NCBI RefSeq assembly: GCF_024266705.1 | Contig: NZ_CP100756.1 | Location: 1,550,001-1,614,000, forward strand | Reading direction: 5' to 3' | DNA: 64,000 nt | Source of the DNA: Natrinema gelatinilyticum | GTDB lineage: Archaea > Halobacteriota > Halobacteria > Halobacteriales > Natrialbaceae | Part shown: in pieces, positions 7,377 through 63,701 of the stretch | Layout: every line of letters begins with the position of its first letter | Numbering within the stretch: position 1 is the first letter of the stretch | The notes under the pieces: generated by a model | What the model saw: the letters and a program-made list of their open reading frames with translations, nothing else | What the model was told of the DNA's origin: nothing | Database searches by the model: none | Translations under genes and position numbers: made by a program

Positions 7377-8975
7377 TCACGAGAATTTCTGAACGGTCAC
7401 GTCTAACGTGTCCAGATCCACGATTGGCGCGAAGCCGGCGTCGGGGTCGATGTTGACGCTCTTCTGAAAGTCAGTCTGGGCCTGCCAGCAGCCTGAGTTG
7501 ATCGCGAGGACGTTGTGATATTTTCCGAATCCGAGTTTATGGACGTGGCCCGTATGGAAGATGTCGGGCACCTCGTCGACGATGAGATAATCCTTCTCTT
7601 CGGGTGCGAGTCGGGTGTGGCCGCCGAACTGCGGAGCGACGTGGCGCTTCTTGAGGAGGTGGTACATCGCCTTGTGCGGATCGTCGTAGCTGGCCTTTTC
7701 CTCGGGGAGTTCCGCGATCACCTCGTCCAGCGAGACGCCGTGATACATCAACACGGAGACGCCCTCGAGCGTTATTGTCGACGGGTTGCTCACGATCCGA
7801 GGGTCGTGTACGGACATGATCTCCCGTAACTCCTCGTCGAACCCCGGCTGTGGCTCGGCGAGGCGGACCGCATCGTGGTTCCCCGGGATCATGACGATCT
7901 CGATGTCACCGGGCACTTTCTTCAGGTACTCGCTGAACGCTTCGTACTGTTCGTAAATGTCGACGATGTCGAGTTCCTCGTCCTGATTGGGATACACGCC
8001 GACGCCTTCGACCATATCGCCTGCGAGCAACATGTACTCGACGTGTTGGGCCTGGTCGGTATGGAGCCAGTCGGCGAACGCGTTCCACGCGTCTGCCATG
8101 AATTCCTGGCTGCCGACGTGGACGTCGCTGATCAGCACCGCCTGGACGTGGCGATCCGCGGTCGACGGCTCGTGTGTTCGGGGCACGTCCGGGAAGTACA
8201 TCGAATCGACGAACGCGATCCCTGAATCGTCCGCGAGCGTCCCTTCCAGCGCGAGAGCCTCGTCGCAAAGCAATTCGTCGACGAGGTCGACGTACGCCCG
8301 GTCTTTCATCACCAACCAGGGGAACGTTCCGGTCGCGTCCTCGAGTTCGATCAGCCAGTGGCCGCTCGCGGTCGATCGGATGTCGTTGACCAGGCCGACC
8401 ATCGCAGCCTCACTGCCCCCGGGCATCGCCTGGATTGCCGTCGCCGGCCGATGGTTGACCCGGGATCGAAGCTTCGCTCCCAGTCGATCGAGCCTGTCCC
8501 GAAAAACCGAGACGAAATCGCTATACTCGCCCGTTCCTGTACTTTGGCCGGTCATATCGCCGACGATCTCGACCGACCGTTTCGACCGGTCGGCGGAGCG
8601 GTCGGCGGCGGAAGATCCCTCCGTTTCAACTGGAGGTCGATCGGCCAGTTCTCGTTCCGTCGGGGTGTTTCCAGTTGAAACGGAGGGGGTTCGATCCCCG
8701 GATGGAGACGGGTTTTCCGAACCGGCCGCATCGGTTCGCGATCGATCGGCGGGTTCGGTAGTCGAGAGGGCCGCTTCGACGTGCGCAGTCCGAACGACGA
8801 GTACGTCCTCCGGCACTTCTTCGAGAACGCGTTCGAGTGCGGCGGTCGAATTCGCGGCCGCTGCAAGTTTCGTTACGGCCTCACGCTCTGCGTTGTATCC
8901 GCGGGACGTGAGTTCGCTGACGATTCGAGCGGAGGCCTCGAGTGGCACACGCCACGCATTCACGACGGACGGCAA
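7377..8975 (-). CDS. polD1: DNA polymerase D small subunit (DP1, exonuclease subunit)
   Basis: A 532-residue small subunit of the archaeal replicative polymerase PolD; with DP2 it supplies 3'-5' proofreading. The C-terminal half is an Mre11-like calcineurin phosphoesterase with the metal ligands intact: ISDVHVG, LAGDMVEG, PGNHDA, MYHGVSL and HTGHVHKL. An OB-fold precedes it. Residues about 78-155 are an acidic, Ser/Thr/Arg linker, the usual variable region of haloarchaeal DP1. The true start may be the GTG at 8948 (VPLEASARIVSEL), since homologues begin near there. In haloarchaea this gene commonly lies next to sec11 and orc1 at oriC1, as here. Two ORB-like sequences are embedded in the linker-coding DNA. 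Confidence 0.96.
   Translation of the reverse strand: MPSVVNAWRVPLEASARIVSELTSRGYNAEREAVTKLAAAANSTAALERVLEEVPEDVLVVRTAHVEAALSTTEPADRSRTDAAGSENPSPSGDRTPSVSTGNTPTERELADRPPVETEGSSAADRSADRSKRSVEIVGDMTGQSTGTGEYSDFVSVFRDRLDRLGAKLRSRVNHRPATAIQAMPGGSEAAMVGLVNDIRSTASGHWLIELEDATGTFPWLVMKDRAYVDLVDELLCDEALALEGTLADDSGIAFVDSMYFPDVPRTHEPSTADRHVQAVLISDVHVGSQEFMADAWNAFADWLHTDQAQHVEYMLLAGDMVEGVGVYPNQDEELDIVDIYEQYEAFSEYLKKVPGDIEIVMIPGNHDAVRLAEPQPGFDEELREIMSVHDPRIVSNPSTITLEGVSVLMYHGVSLDEVIAELPEEKASYDDPHKAMYHLLKKRHVAPQFGGHTRLAPEEKDYLIVDEVPDIFHTGHVHKLGFGKYHNVLAINSGCWQAQTDFQKSVNIDPDAGFAPIVDLDTLDVTVQKFS
8615..8689. other. Inverted pair of ORB-like sequences inside polD1
   Basis: The sites at 8615-8636 and 8668-8689 share an identical 18-base core (TCCAGTTGAAACGGAGGG) in opposite orientation, both G-runs pointing outward. 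The core matches the haloarchaeal origin recognition box pattern (TCCAnnTGAAACGnAGGGG) seen at the origin 5 kb away. They fall in the DNA encoding the disordered linker of DP1. Whether Orc1 binds here is unknown. Confidence 0.6.
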
Positions 8976-11141: not shown

Positions 11142-11166
11142 TCTGGAGTTGAAACGAAGGAGGCGG
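11142..11166 (+). other. ORB-like sequence downstream of orc1
   Basis: The core GGAGTTGAAACGAAGGAGG fits the origin recognition box pattern with two deviations. It is the only notable feature of the 330-bp gene-free stretch 10977-11306 apart from the orc1 terminator hairpin. Confidence 0.45.
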
Positions 11167-11306: not shown

Positions 11307-13136
11307 CTAGTTTTCGAATCGGGCCTGGACGAACGGCTGGACGTCGTCGATATCGCTCAGTCGAGAGTCGCTCAGCAGCACCGCCTCCGTCTCTTCGAGT
11401 GGAACCGAGAGGCTGATCTCTTTGGTGCGACCGTAGCGCCCCTTCGAGACGACGATCGCGTTGACGATACCGAGCATGTCGAGTTCGCTGATGAGATCCG
11501 TCACGCGACGCTGCGTCAGGACGTCCGCATCGATCTCCTCACAGAGGCGTTTGTAAATGTTGAACACTTCGCCGGTGTTGATGCTGTGAACGCCGTTTTT
11601 CTCGAGCAAAATGATCGCAAAGAGAACGAGTTTACTCTGCGTTGGCAGCGTGCGGACGACTTCGACGACGCGATCGAGTTCGATCTTGTCCTGGGCCTGT
11701 CGGACGTGTTCTTCCACAATCGTCTCGGCCTGGGACCGCTCGGCCAGCTCCCCTGCCGTTCGAAGCAGATCCAAAGCGCGTCTCGCGTCACCGTGTTCCT
11801 GTGCGGCAAACGCCGCACACAGCGGGATCACGTCCTCCGACAGGGCACCTCCCTTGAACGCGACCTCAGAGCGGTGCTCTAAAATATCTCGTAACTGATT
11901 CGCGTCGTATGGCGGAAAAACGATCTCCTCTTCACCGAGAGAGGATTTGACTCGTGGATCGAGAAAGTCGGTGAACTTCAAGTCGTTGCTGATTCCGATG
12001 ATCGACACTCGCGAATTCTCGAGTTCGGAATTCATCCGCGAGAGATTGTAAAGCGTATCGTCGCCGCTTTTCTCGACGAGTTTATCGATTTCGTCGAGCA
12101 TGATGACGACGACCCGCTCGTCGTAATCGACGGCGTCGAAAAAGACGCTATACACACGGTCGGTCGGCCACCCGGTCATCGGAACCTCCTCGAAGGACTC
12201 CTTGTCATCCTCGAGTTCGGCTCTGCGGGCGTCGACGTCGTCACGAGTATCGAACGGCGTGGACTCGAGGGGGTGAGTCGCCGGGGACGTCGCGGAATCG
12301 GTGGCTGCAGCGTCGGAGGGCGCGGAATCGGCTGTGGTGGAATCCGGTGTTGCGGAGTCGGATGGTCTGGAATCGAGGTCGTCCCCATGGACGTCCGTGT
12401 GATCCGATCGGACGCCGGTCGACGCAGCGTGTTCATCCGGTGACCCCTCCATTTCAGGTGGAGAACCGGACGACTCCGTCTCCGTTTCGTCTCCAGACGA
12501 AGCGGTGGGATGTGATCCACGTTCCCCGTCGGAGACGAACTCGAACGGATCTGACGCCGTCCGATCGTTCGGGTCGGGACGCCCGTCAGTCGCGCTACTG
12601 TCGGAATTTGCCTCGTACTCGTCTACGTCGTTGAGCAGCGACTCGAGGTCTGCTATTCGATCGTTGATGCGCCGCTTGTTCTTTTCGATGAATTTGTTCG
12701 CGAGCTGAGCGAGGACACGATACTGTGTATCGGTGACCTCACAGTTGATGTACTCGACATCACACGGAACGCGGTACTTCTGGGAGGTGCTCTCGAGTTC
12801 CTTACTGACGAATTTGGCGCTCGCAGTCTTTCCGGTCCCGGTTTTGCCGTAGATGAGAATGTTTGATGGGGTTTCGCCGCGGAGCGCAGCGACGAGAATT
12901 GTCGCCATTTTGTTGATTTGATCGCTGCGGTGGGGTAATTCGTGCGGTGTATAGGACGGGCGAAGAACCTCCTTGTTCTCGAAAATCGGTTCTCCACTGA
13001 GCAAATCGTCGAACAGTCCCTGGTTCGACTCTTCGCCGGTGTCGATATCAGAGTTCTCCAGGTTCGACGAAAACACGTTCACTCCGTCGACCTCGGACTC
13101 ATCCGATCCTACGATTTTTGAGTTGTCGTCTGACAT
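11307..13136 (-). CDS. orc1: Orc1/Cdc6 origin-recognition and helicase-loading ATPase
   Basis: A 609-residue AAA+ initiator that binds ORBs and starts replication. Walker A GKTGTGKT is at residues 97-104, Walker B VVIMLDEID at about 343-351, sensor 1 at GISNDL (381-386), and the arginine-rich EHGDARRALDLLR follows. The C terminus is a winged helix (QRRVTDLISELDMLGIVNA). Unlike the usual 400-residue protein, about 150 residues (roughly 165-315) of Ser/Asp/Thr-rich, repetitive sequence are inserted between Walker A and Walker B. The first 45 residues are also acidic and probably disordered. It faces the origin, with an ORB just upstream of its start, suggesting autoregulation by Orc1 binding. 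Confidence 0.95.
   Translation of the reverse strand: MSDDNSKIVGSDESEVDGVNVFSSNLENSDIDTGEESNQGLFDDLLSGEPIFENKEVLRPSYTPHELPHRSDQINKMATILVAALRGETPSNILIYGKTGTGKTASAKFVSKELESTSQKYRVPCDVEYINCEVTDTQYRVLAQLANKFIEKNKRRINDRIADLESLLNDVDEYEANSDSSATDGRPDPNDRTASDPFEFVSDGERGSHPTASSGDETETESSGSPPEMEGSPDEHAASTGVRSDHTDVHGDDLDSRPSDSATPDSTTADSAPSDAAATDSATSPATHPLESTPFDTRDDVDARRAELEDDKESFEEVPMTGWPTDRVYSVFFDAVDYDERVVVIMLDEIDKLVEKSGDDTLYNLSRMNSELENSRVSIIGISNDLKFTDFLDPRVKSSLGEEEIVFPPYDANQLRDILEHRSEVAFKGGALSEDVIPLCAAFAAQEHGDARRALDLLRTAGELAERSQAETIVEEHVRQAQDKIELDRVVEVVRTLPTQSKLVLFAIILLEKNGVHSINTGEVFNIYKRLCEEIDADVLTQRRVTDLISELDMLGIVNAIVVSKGRYGRTKEISLSVPLEETEAVLLSDSRLSDIDDVQPFVQARFEN
12443..12466 (-). other. ORB-like sequence inside orc1
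   Basis: Read on the minus strand this is GTTCTCCACCTGAAATGGAG followed by GGGT, close to the right-hand ORB of the origin, which shares TCTCCACCTGAAA. It encodes part of the disordered insert of Orc1 (SPPEMEGS). Confidence 0.5.
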
Positions 13137-13150
13137 TCGTCGTATGCGAA

Positions 13151-13175
13151 CCCCCTTATTTCGAGTGGAAACCCG
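13151..13175 (-). other. ORB next to the orc1 start
   Basis: On the minus strand it reads GGGTTTCCACTCGAAATAAG followed by GGGG, a good match to the ORB pattern, 15 bases upstream of the orc1 start codon. The position fits both origin recognition and repression of orc1 by its product. Confidence 0.65.
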
Positions 13176-13303
13176 AACCAGTAGTGAGGATTTTCACAGT
13201 GTGATGGCCTCCTCCAGAGGATCCACTGATGCCTACTCCCAATTCGGGTCCAGTTGATGCAAACGAAACAGAGGAAAAGCACGCTAATAAATTCTTCCCT
13301 TCC

Positions 13304-13570
13304 TTATTGCCCGTGCATAAGAATTAGAAGGAGTACTTCAAGAAGGAGTACTTCATCAAACTCTTCTCGAGCAGTGCGATCGTCGACGGTAAAATCGTCT
13401 TCTGGATCTCGAAACCGAGAATCGAGCCCGACTAACCACCTGGATTCGAAATCCAGTTCGGTGTCGATTTGCTGCTCGACGTCTGACGTCCGTCTAAGAA
13501 AGCGAGCAGTGCGCGGACAGTGTGACTCACAAAACTGGTGATTGCCGTCCGGTGTTGCTATCCGAGTCAA
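13304..13570 (-). CDS. Possible small acidic protein within the origin region
   Basis: An 88-residue reading frame with halophilic acidic composition (many Asp/Glu, segments such as TELDFESRW and EEFDEVLLLEVLLL) and two cysteines in an FCESHCPRTARFL segment that looks like part of a zinc-binding or HTH protein. I do not recognise it. The DNA is more AT-rich than neighbouring genes, and one 17-base repeat (GAAGGAGTACTTCA type, 13328-13360) runs through its 3' end. It could be a decaying gene remnant. Confidence 0.35.
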   Translation of the reverse strand: MTRIATPDGNHQFCESHCPRTARFLRRTSDVEQQIDTELDFESRWLVGLDSRFRDPEDDFTVDDRTAREEFDEVLLLEVLLLILMHGQ

Positions 13571-13905
13571 ATCAAATATGAATCAAATATGGTGGGTTAC
13601 TCACGATAGGTCGGATCCTGGGTTCGATAACTGACGATGGTTCGATTAGCAGGTCATACCGTGACAACCGTGACAATGGGGTGTTCAATAAGGCTGGTGT
13701 ACTGTGAGAGAGGAGCATCTGCCGAAAGAGATCCAGCTCGGTGAGTTAGATTCGGTTTGGAAGTGGATTCAACTTGCCGAGTTATGTTCGCTCACTGGAC
13801 ATGCTCAGGCCACGAAGAATGCTCCATCGACTGATTCACCGATTGGACCAGTTTGAAAATCTCATCTGATAGTTGTGGAGGTGTGATCAATGGGAGAGGA
13901 ACCTA
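13571..13905. other. Gene-free stretch left of the origin core
   Basis: No supported gene. A GTG-initiated frame at 13704-13856 (50 codons, beginning REEHLPKEIQLG) is protein-like in its first half, but I cannot assign it; it may be a remnant. The rest shows mixed composition and no clear motif. Confidence 0.5.
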
Positions 13906-14276
13906 CCCCCCCACCCCTTCGTTTCAAGTGGAACGGCCGGAGGGGGAGGGGTGGGGTCACGAGGGGCTATAGAATGGGAAGTTTTATTTAGTTAGATGAA
14001 AAACAGTAACCGTAGAACTAGCAAAGTTGATTCACTTACTAGGCTTCATCTTTCGATTGCTAGTCTAAACTAGAATGGTTTTTCTACACAGGTTTAATTG
14101 CTAGAACCTCAATTAAATTGCTAGAACCGCCTTCTCCCTCGGAATCGTGCGGTAAAACGCCTGTATCTTCCTTCCAGTCGAAAGAACGAGGCTGCTGCTC
14201 TGCTATTTCATCCGATCGAGTCTCTCAATCCACCTCTGCCTCACCGGTCTCCACCTGAAACGAAGGGGTGGGGGGC
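13906..14276. other. oriC1: Chromosomal replication origin core (oriC1-type)
   Basis: Two ORBs bracket an AT-rich stretch. The left one (13906-13934, minus) and the right one (14248-14276, plus) agree at 25 of 29 positions in inverted orientation, sharing the core CTGAAACGAAGGGGTGGGGG or its T variant; their G-runs point away from each other. Between them, 13975-14150 is rich in A/T and carries four copies of TTGCTAG (14018-14024 inverted, 14057-14063, 14098-14104, 14118-14124), two within a 13-bp direct repeat. In haloarchaea such a layout next to orc1 and oap genes marks a duplex-unwinding element between ORBs. Confidence 0.85.
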
Positions 14277-14625
14277 ACTCTCTCCACTATCATCTTCGTC
14301 ATCGTGTGACAATATTTCGCTTACCGTCTTTACATCATGTGACAATGTCTCACTTCCTGACTACCTTTGCCAATCAATGGCAATATTACTTTTCTGACGA
14401 TGGCACTCTCATCTCCGGGAGTCGACACTCTCGACTCCCAATTCCAGAACTCCCTTCTTCTTTGGTACGCCGACGATTCATATCATATTGGTACGGACTG
14501 CACGGTACTGTTCCGTTCGAGACTAATCCAAGTTCGTCGAACTATCATTATGTCTGACGTAGTCTTAAGTGAGTTCAGTTTGTAGTGAGTGCAGATGCAC
14601 CCCGCGGTGCTGGAGGCCCCCACAG
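14277..14625. other. Gene-free stretch between the origin core and oapA
   Basis: AT-rich DNA with a 14-bp imperfect direct repeat, CATCGTGTGACAAT at 14300-14313 and CATCATGTGACAAT at 14333-14346. There is also a palindrome-like CCAATCAATGGCAAT near 14380. Reading frames here lack haloarchaeal acidic composition. The promoter of the oap cluster probably lies within it. Confidence 0.6.
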
Positions 14626-15264
14626 ATGGGACTGTTCACAGAACTCAAAGATAGTATCTCTCGGGTGACGGATCGCCTGTTTTCGGAACAGGAACCGAAG
14701 CGTATCGGTATCTACGGTCCACCGAACGCCGGCAAAACGACGCTCGCGAACCGAATCGCACGCGACTGGACTGGTGATGCGATCGGTGCGGAAAGTCACG
14801 TCCCTCACGAAACGCGACGCGCACGACGGAAAGAAAACGTCGAAATCGAACGGGATGGCAAAACGGTGACTATCGACATCGTCGATACACCCGGTGTGAC
14901 GACGAAAGTCGATTACGAGGAGTTCACCGACGACATGGACGAAGAAGACGCCATTCGCCGTTCCCGTGAAGCAACCGAGGGCGTCGCCGAGGCGATGCAC
15001 TGGCTTCGAGAAGACGTCGACGGCGTTATCTATGTCTTGGATAGTGCGGAAGACCCGATCACACAGGTCAACACGATGCTGATCGGCATCATCGAATCCC
15101 GAGATCTCCCAGTTCTTATCTTCGCGAACAAAACCGACCTCGAGGAATCGAGCGTCAAGCGGATCGAAGACGCATTTCCGCAGCACACGACTGTCCCGCT
15201 CTCTGCGAAGGAAGGCACCAACATGGATGAAGTGTACGGCAAGATCGCGGAGTACTTCGGGTGA
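14626..15264 (+). CDS. oapA: Era-like GTP-binding protein, origin-associated (OapA-type)
   Basis: A 212-residue TRAFAC-class GTPase. G1 is GPPNAGKTT (near residue 29), G3 is DTPGV, G4 is NKTDLEE and G5 is PLSAKEGTN, so guanine specificity is intact. The short N-terminal helix and absence of a KH domain separate it from Era. The same gene, followed by a DUF2073 gene and a zinc-ribbon gene, adjoins oriC1 in Haloferax volcanii, where they are called oapA-C. The ATG giving MGLFTELKDS was chosen because the upstream extension is Cys-rich and not conserved. It overlaps or abuts oapB, so they are co-transcribed. Confidence 0.88.
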   Translation: MGLFTELKDSISRVTDRLFSEQEPKRIGIYGPPNAGKTTLANRIARDWTGDAIGAESHVPHETRRARRKENVEIERDGKTVTIDIVDTPGVTTKVDYEEFTDDMDEEDAIRRSREATEGVAEAMHWLREDVDGVIYVLDSAEDPITQVNTMLIGIIESRDLPVLIFANKTDLEESSVKRIEDAFPQHTTVPLSAKEGTNMDEVYGKIAEYFG

Positions 15265-15269
15265 TAACG

Positions 15270-15671
15270 ATGCCGAAAGCTACCAACGCGGACGATTCGG
15301 ACCCATCTGACGGCGTACAGATCGACATGATCAGCGGGGAGCGACTGGACGGTATGGCAACGATGGAGAAGATCAGGATGATCTTAGACGGCGTCCATGA
15401 CGGTAACATCGTGATCCTCGAGGAGGGATTGACTCCCGACGAAGAGAGTCGACTTATCGAGGTGACGATGGCCGAGATCAGTCCCGACGAATTCAACGGC
15501 ATCGAGATCGAAACCTATCCAAAATCCGATACTCGCAACTCATCGCTGCTTAGCCGCCTTATGGGGAGCGATCAGCCGGATACGAAACTGACGGTGATCG
15601 GACCGGCAAACCAGATAGAGACGCTCCACAAGGACGAAACGCTCATCAGTGCGCTCGTGTCCCGTAACTAA
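15270..15671 (+). CDS. oapB: DUF2073 protein, origin-associated (OapB-type)
   Basis: A 133-residue protein typical of DUF2073: VQIDMISGERLDGMATMEKI, then DGNIVILEEGLTPDEESRLIE, then FNGIEIETYP, then KLTVIGPANQIETLHKDE. The biochemical role is unknown; the family always travels with the Era-like GTPase. A GTG at 15261 overlapping the oapA stop is an alternative start, which would couple translation. It ends with TAATG, its stop overlapping the start of the next gene. Confidence 0.85.
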   Translation: MPKATNADDSDPSDGVQIDMISGERLDGMATMEKIRMILDGVHDGNIVILEEGLTPDEESRLIEVTMAEISPDEFNGIEIETYPKSDTRNSSLLSRLMGSDQPDTKLTVIGPANQIETLHKDETLISALVSRN

Positions 15672-16717
15672 TGCCACACCAGTGTACGAACTGCGGCCGG
15701 ACGTTCGCCGACGGCTCCAAGGAGATGCTGTCGGGCTGTCCCGACTGCGGCGGCAACAAATTTCAGTTCGCGCCGACTGCCGCGGCCGCAGCTGAATCGT
15801 TCGACGATGGCGGTGATCCACGGTCGGCTTCGTCAGCCGGTGGGGGCGGACCGACGACCGTCGACTCACCCGATTCGACGGACTCGGCTGACCCATCCGC
15901 GTCCGCGGAGTCGTCGGGTGTGCCGACGCGAGCCGCTAAAACCGTTCGCGATTGGGTATCCACTGACTCGTCGGACAGCCGGAGCGAAGAGTACACTGAT
16001 GCTCCCGAACAAGCACACCGGAACGGATCCGATTCCACCGGACGCCAGCAACCGGGTCGGTCGCACACAGCCTCCCGGTCGGACAACCCCTGGCCCTCGA
16101 GTGCGAAACCCCAGACCGACGAATCGAGTTCACCGACGAACGACGGGTTTGCCGAGTGGCCTGAAACGGCTCGCCGACCCAAAGATCGATCCGACGCTCA
16201 GAGCGAGCCCGAGTCACCGGGCGACGGGCGCGAAGAACGAACCGAACGGAACGCCGGCCAGCCGGATCACTCGTCGGCCACTCCCGCCGAACCGTCTACT
16301 GAAGATGAGAATTCGGCTCAAGCCGACGCCCGCAGCGAAATTTTTCCAGCGAAAGACCTTCCCTCCTACTCAGCGGGTCCCGATCGGCCCACCGTAGAAC
16401 GGAAAGCCGACGGCAGTACTCGGGTGGATGCGCGGGACAGCGCCGAAGATACCGATACCGGGGCAGACGATGGTCACCCACCCGATCACGGTCGTGTTGT
16501 CAGCGAACCGAGCGGCGAGCGCCCGTCCATCGAGGAGCTCCGCGCGGAACTCAACGAACAGTTCGAAAGCATCAAGATCGTTAGCCCGGGCCAGTACGAG
16601 CTCAATTTGATGGAACTGTACAATCGCGAAGAGTACATTATTTCACTCCAGGAAGACGGCCGGTACGTCATCGACGTCCCGGATTCATGGCGCGCTAGCG
16701 ACGACGATGCTGGCTGA
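15671..16717 (+). CDS. oapC: Zinc-ribbon protein, origin-associated (OapC-type)
   Basis: A 348-residue protein in three parts. Residues 1-30 form a zinc ribbon (C5, C8, C23, C26). Residues about 31-275 are a low-complexity Ser/Asp/Pro/Thr/Glu region, surely disordered and much longer than in homologues with short linkers. Residues about 276-345 are the conserved C-terminal domain (RPSIEELRAELNEQFESI, then SPGQYELNLMELY, then YVIDVPDSWR). The domain is found in archaeal proteins linked to the GTPase and DUF2073 genes. The architecture suggests an adaptor with a nucleic-acid-binding ribbon, which is inference. Start overlaps the oapB stop by one base. Confidence 0.85.
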   Translation: MPHQCTNCGRTFADGSKEMLSGCPDCGGNKFQFAPTAAAAAESFDDGGDPRSASSAGGGGPTTVDSPDSTDSADPSASAESSGVPTRAAKTVRDWVSTDSSDSRSEEYTDAPEQAHRNGSDSTGRQQPGRSHTASRSDNPWPSSAKPQTDESSSPTNDGFAEWPETARRPKDRSDAQSEPESPGDGREERTERNAGQPDHSSATPAEPSTEDENSAQADARSEIFPAKDLPSYSAGPDRPTVERKADGSTRVDARDSAEDTDTGADDGHPPDHGRVVSEPSGERPSIEELRAELNEQFESIKIVSPGQYELNLMELYNREEYIISLQEDGRYVIDVPDSWRASDDDAG

Positions 16718-20186: not shown

Positions 20187-20214
20187 GGCCGCGGGCTGGC
20201 GTCAGCCCGCGGCC
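20187..20214. terminator. Perfect hairpin overlapping the transposase stop codon
   Basis: An 11-bp perfect stem, GGCCGCGGGCT with AGCCCGCGGCC, and a 6-nt loop. It spans the transposase stop at 20202-20204 and should act on the transposase mRNA as a 3' stabiliser or terminator, or impede readthrough from neighbouring genes. Confidence 0.6.
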
Positions 20215-21380
20215 GATGCGTATGTTTCTGGCACACCGACGCCGTTCATCTTAATCTCCCACCTCCGCTCTAACTCTTCCTCTAATGCGTGTCTGATCCA
20301 GTCAGAGAAGGTCTTGAACGTGAATTCCTCGGGCAGGTCGCGCCCGCCCCATCGTGGGCGGGCGACGACCGCCCATCGAAGCACAAGCCAGAGGTTCTCC
20401 AACAAGAATCCAATCAAGACGAACGCAAAGCGGATGACTGGATCCTGTGTCGTTGTTATTACCCGCGCTTGGCGGAATACACGGTAGCTCGTCTCGATCG
20501 CCGATCGTTTCCGATAGAGTCGTTCGACCTGCTTGGGCGTGCGATCGGCCAGATCGCACGCCACATACCCTCGCACAACCTCTCCGCTTTTCCCTCGATT
20601 TCCAGCGTGATAGGACACAGCGACCGCGAGCGGGAATTCCAGTTCCCGCTCGCGGCCTTTGTACATCCGATAGGTCGTCATGTACGAGCAGTGCGTATTC
20701 AGCTTCTTCCTCATGCGCTTGCCCTTCTTTTGGACGGGAACGACAGTCGCAGCAATCTCCCGTGAGCGGCGCAGAATACGTTCGTTGTAGAAGCCACGAT
20801 CAGCCAAGAGCAACTCTATCTCGAAGGGATAGGCTTCGACGCGGTCGAGGACGCGCTCGACCGCGTCGGCCTCTTTCTCATCACTACGGACGTACGTCAT
20901 CGCCAATGTCACTGGCTTTCCGTTCGAGACGAGATACGCCGTGCAGTACCGGTGGCACGTCGTTGTTCCGTCTTTTGCGTGCATGCGGCAGAGTTCACCT
21001 TCTTCATCGGCGTACGTTCCGTGGTAGGGGTTATCGACGAAGTCAATGGAGACGATCCTCGACCGATCAGGGTCGAGGATCGTCATCGCCAACTCCTTGA
21101 GAAGGCGGTTAGCAACCCGCTCAAGCCACTCTCGGTTGAGCGTATGTAGCCAGTCCATGACAGTATCGTCACAGGCAGCGTTGTCGTTGTCCTTGCACGT
21201 CTCCCAGATGGAGGTCTGGTTCACTGCTGCAAGAACCACGACAGCCCAGATATCGCCGGGATCGAGGGGCGAGCCCTCGATCCCTGGCAAAGGGAGCTGG
21301 CAGATGACGTCTTCCGCTAAATCTTTCACGTCCGAGTCCGAAAGAACACCGTCTGGCTGAGGGGTTTTGAACACATTCAC
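20202..21380 (-). CDS. ISH3-family transposase (DDE)
   Basis: A 392-residue transposase, full length, with no internal stop. The acidic catalytic residues are visible in SIDFVDNPYHG, LLLADRGFYNE and KRSAIETSYRVFR, the last being the Y-(2)-R-x(3)-E-x(6)-K type helix shared with IS4 relatives. The N-terminal region (DLAEDVICQLPLPGIEGSPLD) is the family's DNA-binding part. The basic stretch KKGKRMRKKLNTH is less acidic than host proteins. The frame is intact, so the element may still be mobile. Confidence 0.92.
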   Translation of the reverse strand: MNVFKTPQPDGVLSDSDVKDLAEDVICQLPLPGIEGSPLDPGDIWAVVVLAAVNQTSIWETCKDNDNAACDDTVMDWLHTLNREWLERVANRLLKELAMTILDPDRSRIVSIDFVDNPYHGTYADEEGELCRMHAKDGTTTCHRYCTAYLVSNGKPVTLAMTYVRSDEKEADAVERVLDRVEAYPFEIELLLADRGFYNERILRRSREIAATVVPVQKKGKRMRKKLNTHCSYMTTYRMYKGRERELEFPLAVAVSYHAGNRGKSGEVVRGYVACDLADRTPKQVERLYRKRSAIETSYRVFRQARVITTTQDPVIRFAFVLIGFLLENLWLVLRWAVVARPRWGGRDLPEEFTFKTFSDWIRHALEEELERRWEIKMNGVGVPETYASAAG

Positions 21381-54253: not shown

Positions 54254-56719
54254 CTAGCTCGAATAGTCGCTTCCGATGACTTCTCGGATCCGCTCTGCGG
54301 TCACCGACCCGACGCCGTCTGCCTCCTGTAACTCGTCTTCGGTCGCGATCATCACGTCCTCGACTGTGCCGAACGCTTCGAGCAGCGACCTAGCCGTGAC
54401 GGGGCCGATTTCGGCGATGGAGGCCACGACGTACTCCTGCTGTTCGGACAGGGTCTTGCTGCCCTTCTCGCCGTGGACTGATACCTCTCGGTCGGCGGTC
54501 GTCTGTTCGCGCCCGGCGATCACCGCGAGCAGTTCGGTGGTATCGGTTTCGCCCTCGGTTCGCAGGACGCTCACGCCGAAGTCGACGGCGAGACTCGAGA
54601 GCGCTCCCCGGACCGCATTCGGGTGTACGTCCCGCTGCTCGTATAGCCCGTCACCCTCGACGACGATGATCGGCCGCGAGTAGTGGCGGGCCATCGCGCC
54701 GGCCTGCTCGAAGACCGACCGGTCACCACCAACCAGCGAATCCACGAAATCCCCGACGGACTTACGTTCGACGATCACTCGATCCGACAAGACGTAGTCG
54801 CCGACGTCGAGCGTCTCGAGGCGCACCTCGATTTCGTCGCGTCGAGAGAGGTCTCGGGCGATGTTCGCGTCCATCTCGCGCTGGTCGGCGACGACCTCGA
54901 CAGTCTCGCCCTCGGCGTGTGGCTCGTGGGTTTCGACGGACTCCTCGTCTGGCCTCTCCGCAGCGTCGGCCCGGTCGGCGAATTCCTGTAGTCCCGGCTG
55001 TTCTCGACCCCCTTCGTTTCCACTGGAAAAACCGCCGACAGCATCGGGGTCGGCGCGCTTTTCGACGGCTTCTGACTCAGTGGGTGCTCCGTCGGCGACC
55101 CCCGTTGCCATGTGTTCCTCGTCGCCCTCGAAATCCGAAAGCGATTGCTGGGAGTCGTCGAGTTCGCTCTCGAGGTCGGTAGCCATTCCCTTCAGTTCGC
55201 GTAGCTCCGACTCCATCTCCTTTTCGCGCCGCCTCGAGATCCAGAAGTAGGCCTCGTCGCGGGTGTCCTCGGCCATGAGGACGACGACCCGCCCCTCGGA
55301 CTGGCGACCGGTTCGCCCCTTCCGCTGGATCGAACGGATGGCGGTCGGAACGGGCTCGTAAAAGAGAACCAGGTCGACTTCCGGAACGTCGAGCCCTTCC
55401 TCGGCGACCGACGTCGAAACCAGCACTTCGAACTCGCCTGCCCGGAACTCGTCTAGAACTTCCTGTTGTTGCTTCTGGGTCATTCCGTCCGAACCCTCGC
55501 GGTCGCCCTGTCCGACGAACCGCTTCGCGTCGAAGCTCTCCCCGAGAAAGTCCGTCAGGGCCTCGGCAGTATCGCGAGACTCGGTGAAGACGATGACGCG
55601 TTCGCCACCTTCGAGTCCCAGGGTTTCGGCGAGCAACATACGGGCCTTGCGGTACTTGGGGTGGATCTCGTCGAACCGTTCGGCCTTCCGCATCGCCTCG
55701 CGAACGCCCGGGTCCGAAATCATTCGCTGGCTCGCTTTCGACGCCCCAGACGAGCGAGCCTGGTTTCGCTGGCGCTCGAAGTACCGACGGAGCGCCTCAA
55801 CGCTCTGGGTTTCGACCAGCGTGACGGCCTGGCGGAGCTTCATCACCTCCGCGTGGACTGACATCCCCTCGAACCCCTTCGATTGATCGTTGTTGATCAA
55901 CTGCTGCAGTTCAGCTCGCATCCGATTCAAGTCCTTCTGTGACTGGTCGGGCTGCGTCGAGCGCGCGATTCCGAGTTCCTTGAGTTTCTCGAGGCGATCC
56001 GTGATGACCTCGTTCAGCGCGTCCCGTATCTCGAGGACTTCGTCCGGGAGGTCGATCCGCTCCCATTCGACGTCGGTATCGTGAGTGAACTCGTCCACGT
56101 CGGCGTCTTCTTCGGTCATCACTTCGACCTCCCGGAGGCCGAGGTTCTCACAGACGTCGAGGATCGCCTCTTCGTCGCCGCCGGGTGACGCCGACATGCC
56201 GGTTACGAGCGGATCGTGGGCGTCGGCGTGGTACCGCTCTGCGATGTAGTTGTACGCGTAGTCGCCGGTTGCGCGGTGGCACTCGTCGAAGGTGGCGTGG
56301 GTGACGTCGGCAAGCGAGATGCGCGACCCGACGAGGTCGTTTTCGATCACCTGCGGCGTCGCCATCACGACCGTGGCCGTCTCCCATATCGCGGCCCGGT
56401 CGTCGGGGCTGACGTCGCCAGTAAAGACGACGACCTCGTCGTCGGGAATGCGAAGAGCCTCCCGGTAGAAATCTGCGTGCTGCTGGACGAGGGGTTTCGT
56501 CGGTGCGAGCATCAGCGATTTCCCGCCGACCTCCTCGAGCCTGCGCGCCGTGACCAGCAGACTGACCGTCGTCTTCCCGAGGCCGGTCGGGAGACAGACG
56601 AGCGTGTGGTGGTTCGCGGCCGTGCCCGCGAGTTTTAGCTGGTACAGTCGGCGCTCGAGGAAGTCGGGCTGGAGGAGCGGATGGTCGATTGATGGCGGTC
56701 CCTCGTCCTGTGCTGCCAT
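54254..56719 (-). CDS. hef: Hef-type helicase/nuclease (FANCM/XPF family)
   Basis: An 821-residue enzyme that processes stalled forks. The N-terminal SF2 helicase has PTGLGKTTVS (Walker A), FDECHRA (DEAH-type), MSASPGG and the C-terminal motif RSIQRKGRTGRQ. After an acidic Ser/Glu-rich linker (residues about 520-640), the XPF-like nuclease carries ERKSVGDFVDSL (the catalytic ERK-x-x-x-D) and a C-terminal helix-hairpin-helix domain (ADGVGSVTAERIREVI). Both active sites look intact. Convergent with the PAP2 gene, 61 bases apart. Confidence 0.94.
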   Translation of the reverse strand: MAAQDEGPPSIDHPLLQPDFLERRLYQLKLAGTAANHHTLVCLPTGLGKTTVSLLVTARRLEEVGGKSLMLAPTKPLVQQHADFYREALRIPDDEVVVFTGDVSPDDRAAIWETATVVMATPQVIENDLVGSRISLADVTHATFDECHRATGDYAYNYIAERYHADAHDPLVTGMSASPGGDEEAILDVCENLGLREVEVMTEEDADVDEFTHDTDVEWERIDLPDEVLEIRDALNEVITDRLEKLKELGIARSTQPDQSQKDLNRMRAELQQLINNDQSKGFEGMSVHAEVMKLRQAVTLVETQSVEALRRYFERQRNQARSSGASKASQRMISDPGVREAMRKAERFDEIHPKYRKARMLLAETLGLEGGERVIVFTESRDTAEALTDFLGESFDAKRFVGQGDREGSDGMTQKQQQEVLDEFRAGEFEVLVSTSVAEEGLDVPEVDLVLFYEPVPTAIRSIQRKGRTGRQSEGRVVVLMAEDTRDEAYFWISRRREKEMESELRELKGMATDLESELDDSQQSLSDFEGDEEHMATGVADGAPTESEAVEKRADPDAVGGFSSGNEGGREQPGLQEFADRADAAERPDEESVETHEPHAEGETVEVVADQREMDANIARDLSRRDEIEVRLETLDVGDYVLSDRVIVERKSVGDFVDSLVGGDRSVFEQAGAMARHYSRPIIVVEGDGLYEQRDVHPNAVRGALSSLAVDFGVSVLRTEGETDTTELLAVIAGREQTTADREVSVHGEKGSKTLSEQQEYVVASIAEIGPVTARSLLEAFGTVEDVMIATEDELQEADGVGSVTAERIREVIGSDYSS
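55007..55030 (-). other. ORB-like sequence inside hef
   Basis: On the minus strand it reads TTTTCCAGTGGAAACGAAGG followed by GGGT, a very good match to the ORB pattern. It encodes part of the linker between the helicase and nuclease domains (FSSGNEGG). Confidence 0.6.
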
Positions 56720-61928: not shown

Positions 61929-63701
61929 CTATCCCTCGAGGTCTTCGAACTCGAGGTCGCCCGCTCGGATCGCCGGTAGTGCCGTGGGAAGGTCCTCTAT
62001 CGGCAGTCGCTTCTGGGCGGTTGTGTCTCGCTCGCGGACCGTGACGGCCTCGTCTTCGAGGCTCTCGTAGTCGACGGTCACGCAGAACGGCGTCCCGACC
62101 TCGTCCTGGCGGCGGTAGCGACGACCGATATTCCCGGAGTCGTCGTACGTGACCGATAGACCTGCTTCCCGCAAGGCTGCAGCGACCTCCCGGGCTTCGG
62201 TCTCGAGTTCGTCGTCGTTTTGCAGCGGGAAGACGCCGACGAACGTGGGTGCGACCTCGGGTTCGAGGTCGAGGTACGTGCGTTCCTCGCCGTCGACCTC
62301 GTCCTCACGGTAGGCGTGATGCAACACGGTGTAGACGACCCGGTCGACGCCGAAGGACGGTTCGACGACGTGGGGCGTGATGTGTTCGCCGGCCTCCGTT
62401 TTCGCTTCGAGAGAGAACCCCGTCGTTTCGACTGGAATCTCGCGCGTTTCGCCGTCGAGGTCGATCTCCACGGTTTCCCCGTCGAACGCACTGCGATTGC
62501 GCGCAGCTAACTCCTCGAGTTTCTCGACGACGGTCTCGGCGTCACCGCCGAATTCCGGCCCGAGGTAGCTCATGTCGGGGTCGACGGTGGCGCGCTCGAC
62601 GGTCCTGGGTTCGTCGTACTGTTTGAAGATCGTGAACCGATCGCCGGAATGGTCGCCGTGTTTCGAGAGGTCGTAGTTCCCGCGGTGGGCGAAGCCGGCC
62701 ATCTCGATCCAGTTTCCGTCGATTTCGCTTTCGGCGTCCCAGCAGTCGCTAGCGTAGTGGGCACGCTCGCCCGGGAGGTGCTGGCGATAACGGAATCGAT
62801 CCATGTCGACGCCGACCGCCTCGTACCACGGTTTCGCGACGCCGAGGAAATACGCGACCCACTGATCGGTGATGATCCCCGCCGCGACGGCCTCGCCGAT
62901 CGTCGTCTCGATCTCCGTACCCCCCTCCGCATCCTGCTCGCTGGCCGGATACAGGGTCACGGTAACGTCTTCGACGCTCGAGAGGTCCGGCTCGTCAGCC
63001 TCGGGATCGATGAAGTATTCGAGTTCGGCCTGCGTGAACTCGCGCGTACGGATGATCGAACGTCGAGGGCTAATCTCGTTGCGGTAGGCGCGCCCGATTT
63101 GCGTGACGCCGAAGGGAAGCTGATTGCGCGCGTACTCCTTCAGTCGAGGGAACTCCACGAAGATGCCCTGTGCCGTCTCGGGACGCAGATATCCCGGCTG
63201 GGAGTCGCCGGGGCCGATGTTCGTTTTGAACATGAGGTTGAAGGCTTCGACGGCCTGACCCGCGAGTCCCGCGCCGCAGTTCGGGCAGACGAGTTCGTAC
63301 TCGGCGATGACCTCTTCGACCTCAGGGATCGGGAGACTTTCGGCGTCTTCGTACTCCGTGTTGTCCTCGACGACGTGATCCGCCCGGTGGCTCTCGCCAC
63401 ACTCCGGGCACTCGACGAGCATGTCGTCGAACCCCTCGAGATGGCCGGAGGCCTCGAAGACGGGTTCGGGCATAATCGTCGGCGCGTCTATCTCCATGTT
63501 TCCTTCGGCGACTGCGAAGCGGTCGCGCCAGGCGTCTTCGATATTCCCTTTCAGTGCCGCACCCTGGGGCCCAAAGGTGTAGAAGCCACCGACGCCGCCG
63601 TAGGCCCCCGCGGACTGGAAGAAGTACCCCCGCCGTTTCGCCAGTTCGACCAGTTTTTCGCTCGTCGTGTCGGGAGTCTCCGCGTGTTCTTGCTCACTCA
63701 T
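61929..63701 (-). CDS. glyS: Glycyl-tRNA synthetase
   Basis: A 590-residue class II synthetase of the archaeal/eukaryotic type. Motif 1 and the FNLMFKTNIGPG region, motif 2 (FREISPRRSIIRTREFTQAEL read as RNEISPRRSIIRTREFTQAE) and motif 3 (PSFGVDRVVYTVL) are intact. A zinc-binding insertion (CPECGESHRADHV and CPNCGAGL) is present. The anticodon-binding domain (VAPTFVGVFPL) follows. The start MSEQEHAETPD overlaps the upstream CBS-gene stop by eight bases. Confidence 0.95.
   Translation of the reverse strand: MSEQEHAETPDTTSEKLVELAKRRGYFFQSAGAYGGVGGFYTFGPQGAALKGNIEDAWRDRFAVAEGNMEIDAPTIMPEPVFEASGHLEGFDDMLVECPECGESHRADHVVEDNTEYEDAESLPIPEVEEVIAEYELVCPNCGAGLAGQAVEAFNLMFKTNIGPGDSQPGYLRPETAQGIFVEFPRLKEYARNQLPFGVTQIGRAYRNEISPRRSIIRTREFTQAELEYFIDPEADEPDLSSVEDVTVTLYPASEQDAEGGTEIETTIGEAVAAGIITDQWVAYFLGVAKPWYEAVGVDMDRFRYRQHLPGERAHYASDCWDAESEIDGNWIEMAGFAHRGNYDLSKHGDHSGDRFTIFKQYDEPRTVERATVDPDMSYLGPEFGGDAETVVEKLEELAARNRSAFDGETVEIDLDGETREIPVETTGFSLEAKTEAGEHITPHVVEPSFGVDRVVYTVLHHAYREDEVDGEERTYLDLEPEVAPTFVGVFPLQNDDELETEAREVAAALREAGLSVTYDDSGNIGRRYRRQDEVGTPFCVTVDYESLEDEAVTVRERDTTAQKRLPIEDLPTALPAIRAGDLEFEDLEG

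Follow-up and report, generated by a model that had tools for sequence, protein, structure and literature searches.

The oriC1 core and its surroundings

The 64-kb stretch of Natrinema gelatinilyticum DNA analysed here (the window) holds an inverted pair of ORBs between an orc1/cdc6 gene and an oapABC gene run. The features of the pair and of the genes around it are as follows:

7377–8975, minus strand: dp1, the gene of the PolD small subunit DP1 (NF003116, 979 bits; PF04042)
11307–13136, minus strand: orc1/cdc6 of the oriC1 type (NF001625, TIGR02928, PF09079, PF22703; PDB 2qby, 2v1u)
13905–13934, minus strand: left ORB of oriC1, GTTCCACTTGAAACGAAGGGGTGGGGGGGT; G-string outward (leftward); PWM score 50.9, the top of the window
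13939–13956, plus strand: inner G-rich element beside the left ORB, counterpart of H. hispanica oriC1 element III
13982–14081, no strand: putative duplex-unwinding region, the least stable 100 nt of the core
14018–14124, no strand: six CTAG sites (14018, 14039, 14060, 14070, 14101 and 14121), several alignable across Natrialbaceae
14172–14191, plus strand: weak ORB-like site within the core; core score 10.8; partly conserved in the alignment
14248–14277, plus strand: right ORB of oriC1, TCTCCACCTGAAACGAAGGGGTGGGGGGCA; G-string outward (rightward); PWM score 46.6
14629–15264, plus strand: oapA, Era-like GTPase gene (profile matches), the first gene right of the origin
15270–15671, plus strand: oapB (PF09846)
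15671–16717, plus strand: oapC (PF09845)

The original prediction had placed orc1 on the left and oapABC on the right, and the profile matches (NF001625 on the left; the GTPase gene, OapB and OapC on the right) bear this out. The orc1 product matches NF001625 at 651 bits (cut-off, 501), contains Cdc6_C and Cdc6_lid domains as well as a low-complexity insert at about aa 170–300, and has Sulfolobus Cdc6-1 (2qby_A) as its best PDB match. Roughly ten Orc paralogues are present in the genome. An ISH3-family transposase gene lies at 20202–21380, approximately 6 kb right of the origin.

Direct comparison of 13906–13934 (CCCCCCCACCCCTTCGTTTCAAGTGGAAC) with the reverse complement of 14248–14276 (GCCCCCCACCCCTTCGTTTCAGGTGGAGA) gave 25 matches out of 29, the figure originally reported, and nowhere else in the 64-kb window do two inverted 29-mers lying within 371 bp agree at 25 or more positions. 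The arms were also recovered by a repeat search (26 nt at 96%), and the G-runs of both sites do point outward, as had been claimed. The description of the 371-bp stretch as AT-rich holds relative to the window (51% versus 38% AT); the interior between the ORBs reaches 54%. That the two sites flank low-melting DNA is well founded. The AT-richest 100 nt (13984–14083; 68% AT) is exceeded by no other 100-mer sampled, and nearest-neighbour energies place 13982–14081 within the weakest 0.003% of the window. The GC skew over 264 kb has no switch at the origin and was uninformative, and no plasmid record matched the origin by BLAST.

With the OapA protein as query, 80 named haloarchaeal loci were retrieved, the nearest being from Natrinema (95–97% identity). 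The inverted ORB pair with outward G-strings was found at 76 of the 81 haloarchaeal loci (window included), with the consensus TTCCAnnnGAAACGAAGGGGTGGGGG on both sides and a core ORB spacing of 245–358 bp in Natrialbaceae. Helical phasing of this spacing was considered and rejected: steps of about 10–11 bp hint at it, but R reached at most 0.56 over the scanned periods, which is unconvincing.

According to the literature, oriC1m of H. hispanica consists of inverted ORBs, extended G-strings I and II, an inner G-rich repeat (elements III and IV) and an AT-rich centre; autonomous replication requires the G-strings, the inner repeat acts as an enhancer, and a minimal oriC1 of the same architecture as here replicates autonomously (PMC3936714). 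The oriC1 regions of H. hispanica, H. volcanii and Haloferax mediterranei share with the present locus the orc1/cdc6A neighbour, the inverted ORBs with outward G-strings, the AT-rich unwinding region and the left inner G-rich element (PMC3936714, PMC3528665). Unlike H. hispanica oriC1m, the Natrinema gelatinilyticum core yielded no right inner partner (element IV) in an inner-flank scan, which leaves its inner G-rich inverted repeat incomplete; the same scan found element IV absent in most Natrialbaceae. Since this repeat is not universal, it was not taken as defining oriC1. The adjacent oriC1-type orc1, the inverted ORBs with halophile-specific G-strings, the AT-rich unwinding region and the synteny with oapABC were all found, in agreement with the original reading of the locus as a chromosomal origin. 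Based on these sequence features, 13906–14276 is almost certainly the core of the main chromosomal origin, oriC1, and as such it is a typical example of an already known type.

It has been reported that one Orc1 binds each ORB with a defined polarity, and that MCM is recruited to the DUE between inverted ORBs (PMC12141716); the earlier remark that the outward G-runs reflect the polarity in which Orc1 orients helicase loading is compatible with that work. By homology, two Orc1 monomers would bind the inverted core ORBs, and MCM would be loaded onto the low-melting stretch that separates them. In Sulfolobus oriC1 (ORB1–3, ucm/UBP) an inverted ORB pair likewise flanks the DUE, which contains an essential motif (PMC12141716), whereas the recurring element of the DUE here is CTAG.

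The core harbors six CTAG sites where 0.16–0.19 are expected, as compared to 32 in the other 63.7 kb of the window. Similar excesses were observed in the cores of 48 Natrialbaceae (297 sites versus 5.5 expected) and in 28 other cores (57 versus 1.7). Blow et al. (2016) described CTAG density at haloarchaeal orc1/cdc6 starts and an orphan methylase (PMC4752239). The cluster reported here is likewise upstream of orc1/cdc6, but is pinned down to the DNA between the two ORBs and is accompanied by a candidate methylase only, a PF01555 protein with an SPPY motif at C1:3338424, to which no curated model assigns CTAG specificity. A later study of H. volcanii found CTAG enrichment at oriC2 only (PMC5867850), and in Natrinema CTAG is m4C-methylated (PMC6696651). 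Judging from site counts, the cluster appears to support the older proposal of m4C methylation control at haloarchaeal origins and is not new in kind.

Several minor repeats were seen around the core. Two imperfect 30-nt direct repeats containing TGTGACAAT are located right of the right ORB (14300–14362), and GTGACAA words resembling them occur at 13660–13680 too. A perfect tandem duplication of AGAAGGAGTACTTCA is found at 13326–13355. The gap from orc1 to the left ORB is longer than in most relatives; its 13600–13880 portion resembles, by eye, a degraded transposase, and had no match in the loci searched.

Satellite ORBs around the origin

The one-sided inner G-rich element, the CTAG cluster and a set of ORBs outside the core (satellites) go beyond the original prediction. 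The satellites were first seen when the window was scanned with the ORB PWM, and the window contains the following sites:

8616–8635, minus strand: satellite ORB in the dp1 linker, coding-strand orientation (PPVETEGS); core score 23.2
8669–8688, plus strand: satellite ORB in the dp1 linker, opposite orientation (TPSVSTGN); core score 30.9; forms an outward-facing pair with 8616–8635
11143–11162, plus strand: weaker ORB-like site downstream of orc1; core score 13.9 (15.7–21.1 in the same interval of several relatives)
12444–12463, minus strand: satellite ORB within the orc1 coding sequence (SPPEMEGS), in the low-complexity insert; orthologous in 41 Natrialbaceae
13151–13170, minus strand: satellite ORB at the orc1 start; 3' end 14 bp before the start codon
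42962–42981, plus strand: satellite ORB upstream of the gene of a rhodanese-domain protein; ORBs beside the same gene in six relatives
55009–55028, minus strand: satellite ORB inside hef, in a reading frame differing from orc1/dp1; hef-internal ORBs in three relatives
62418–62437, minus strand: ORB-like site inside glyS (glycyl-tRNA synthetase), from the PWM scan of this genome

The pattern TTCCANNNGAAANNNNGGGG, allowing up to one mismatch, has nine matches in the window, whereas dinucleotide shuffles give 0.01 on average and never more than 1. Genome-wide scans were done with a fixed pattern, and PWM scans were regional. In the entire genome (5.44 Mb, three contigs), TCCANNNGAAANNNNGGGG has ten matches, eight of them inside the window: two are the core ORBs, six lie elsewhere in the window, one is 105 kb to the right and one is a stray; the reversed control pattern has none genome-wide. 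At a PWM score of at least 10, 15 sites were found in 264 kb around oriC1, whereas 200 kb of control regions from this genome contained none. Each of 20 other haloarchaeal genomes has 5–12 matches, nearly always near oriC1, and 0–1 control matches. On 12 closed haloarchaeal chromosomes, 59 of the 77 non-core ORBs fall within 110 kb of oriC1 (3.7 expected if uniform) and 45 within 25 kb. Some satellites lie 100–260 kb away. In 14 further genomes, drawn from seven other families, the ORBs cluster likewise wherever contigs permit, and most of these genomes have a strict ORB in dp1. The genomes are akin, and P values are therefore nominal, not independent. The genes at the satellites were identified by comparison with the window neighbourhood and with HMM libraries. 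A genome carries about 3–9 strict satellites, mostly without the extended G-string GGGGTGGGGG of the core ORBs. Taken together, the oriC1 core is the centre of a conserved ORB set, mostly within about 110 kb, and the satellites are very likely real initiator-type sites under selection.

It is known that parS sites cluster around bacterial origins, and clustering of this type is present for the satellites. They might accordingly be read as sites for origin-region organisation or segregation, where a protein nucleates and gathers or partitions sister origins. The spread within about 110 kb of the origin resembles that of parS clusters, and no dedicated haloarchaeal centromere was found in the literature searched; the ORB PWM is, however, not palindromic, unlike a ParB site, and the sites are in or beside replication and repair genes (orc1, dp1, hef), which renders a parS-like role improbable.

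The ORB at the orc1 start was detected in 57 of 73 loci, and in 49 of the 57 it ends 13–14 bp before the start codon; no position in 200 kb of control sequence, both strands included, equals its score in the window. This constancy, together with the ORBs that relatives carry upstream of their rhodanese gene, would fit purely local regulation, with Orc1 controlling orc1, dp1 and hef as DnaA does dnaA and further genes, and no role in dosage. The strongest sites, however, lie deep in the coding sequences of orc1, dp1 and hef, away from promoters. An overlap of the start-codon ORB with the orc1 promoter was considered as well and dropped, the likelier promoter being a block about 75 bp further upstream (13243–13303), with roughly 85–95% identity across many Natrialbaceae. 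Given this conservation, the block is probably the orc1 core promoter, and the start-codon ORB would thus belong to the orc1 5' leader. Gene regulation as the whole role of the satellites is therefore rather unlikely.

Selection on the intragenic boxes and the dp1 pair

The codons used at the intragenic sites are those that the ORB needs, rare ones included, and are far from gene-wide usage. At the dp1 ORBs (51 genes), Ser is TCT in 24 of 25 cases (background, 0.07), Pro is CCA in 46 of 47 (0.13), Thr is ACT in 43 of 43 (0.09), Gly is GGA in 48 of 48 (0.15), and Val is GTT in 34 of 34 (0.12). The orc1-internal ORB is similarly uniform (Ser TCT, 32/33; Pro CCA, 34/34; Glu GAA, 41/41; Gly GGG, 41/41). 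Sites for the codon test were chosen by score; the anchored test described below and the class-wide count are less dependent on this choice.

Such motifs could in principle represent a conserved peptide (P-V-E-T-x-G; P-S-V-S-T-G) and no DNA site, since the sense sites of orc1 and dp1 are read in the same frame, and the peptide they encode is rather well conserved. This reading is contradicted by the codon evidence and is extremely improbable: rare synonymous codons are fixed, and the ORB-fitting bases persist where the residues vary (E/G/K at one codon; S/A/T/V, all T-ending). Moreover, the partner box in dp1 runs on the opposite strand, the hef site is read in another frame, and ORBs are found outside genes too. 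Selection at the intragenic ORBs is thus acting on the DNA, because the codons are rare and ORB-fitting, the amino acids vary, one dp1 box is on the opposite strand and the hef box is in a different frame.

The two dp1 boxes keep a nearly invariant spacing. The offset between the antisense and sense ORBs is 56 nt in 47 of 51 genes and 53 nt in the other four; in the window it is 53 nt. When the sense ORB was fixed, the antisense score peaked only at −56 (mean, 13.4), as compared to −57.3 (sd, 9.5) over all offsets and −29.7 for the next best. A strict pair pattern, allowing a spacer of 32–44 nt, is present in 142 of 391 genomes and 41 of 86 genera; among the matches listed, the spacer is 38 (76-bp footprint) or 35 (73-bp footprint), and the reversed-pattern control has none among the rows listed. 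The pair of the window, with a footprint of 73 bp, differs from the strict pattern at one base (GGGA). The spacer shares 15% amino acid and 35% nucleotide identity, whereas the flanking ORBs keep 79–83% nucleotide identity.

The outward polarity of this pair, the same as in the core pair, would suit an auxiliary initiation or helicase-loading site. Its ORBs, however, are separated by just 38 bp of variable coding DNA with no AT-rich unwinding region, and they are devoid of the extended G-string that is essential in H. hispanica (PMC3936714), making such a function very unlikely.

Possible role of the satellites and known systems

Titration of the initiator and feedback at orc1 may offer a more fitting account of the satellites. 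The same Orc1 would bind them, and, being copied just after the origin fires, they would absorb or re-set Orc1, which would limit re-initiation. An oriC1 core with a conserved satellite set acting through Orc1 titration and feedback is, as a whole explanation, likely to be right; titration and feedback as the main role of the satellites are put forward more tentatively. About 3–9 strict sites per genome are few for titration in polyploid cells, which counts against it. The affinity of the satellites for the initiator, in the lack of the extended G-string, may differ from that of the core ORBs, and another factor or another Orc paralogue could be reading them.

DARS and the DnaA-box clusters of B. 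subtilis are initiator boxes outside oriC that have been proposed to set initiator availability. As with these and datA, the satellites are initiator boxes outside the origin, but, unlike bacterial DnaA-box clusters, they belong to the Orc1/ORB system, are largely intragenic, are paired at fixed spacing and are clustered round the origin. The closest archaeal counterpart is H. hispanica oriC2D, proposed to titrate Cdc6E, with extra ORBs outside the minimal origin and near the initiator gene (PMC3936714); the analogy of an ORB-rich region with datA has been drawn as well (PMC4010727). Both comparisons provide a precedent for titration by satellites. Several initiator boxes outside a minimal origin are a trait shared with datA and oriC2D, whereas a compact non-coding cluster is absent: the oriC2D ORBs are packed in one 722-bp intergenic region, and those of oriC1 are dispersed over up to 110 kb, many of them embedded in coding genes.

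Earlier ORB predictions were confined to intergenic regions beside orc/cdc6 genes (PMC3528665, PMC4595724), and intragenic satellites would be missed by such searches. No report of intragenic or dispersed oriC1 ORBs was found in the open-access papers searched. We know of no account of origin-centred satellite ORBs, and their novelty is probable. A haloarchaea-wide, origin-centred array of Orc1 boxes in replication-gene coding sequence, including the dp1 pair, probably represents a previously undescribed datA-like or parS-like system of initiator control or origin marking. The satellites bear on how initiation is restrained in haloarchaea, which have several origins and are polyploid. The few conserved intragenic boxes could be removed by synonymous recoding, a direct test of titration, autoregulation or origin tethering in archaea. 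They also provide an example of codon choice in an essential polymerase gene being limited by a regulatory DNA site, and ORB clustering offers a sequence-only route to oriC1 in draft genomes.

In Natrinema ejinorense (C1:3308348–3469945), orc1 and dp1, with their ORBs, are approximately 156–161 kb from the core pair. A rearrangement has split the origin from the initiator gene in this species, and the core ORB pair stayed beside oapA; thus, proximity of the satellites to the origin is not absolute.

Approximately 105 kb right of the origin of the genome studied here, tandem TCTATACGAAACGAAGGGG / TCCATGCGAAACGAAGGGG boxes (C1:1668720 and 1668819) are located between an nmd3-like gene and htpX. 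These boxes, possibly an ORB subtype, are found next to the same two genes in two relatives.
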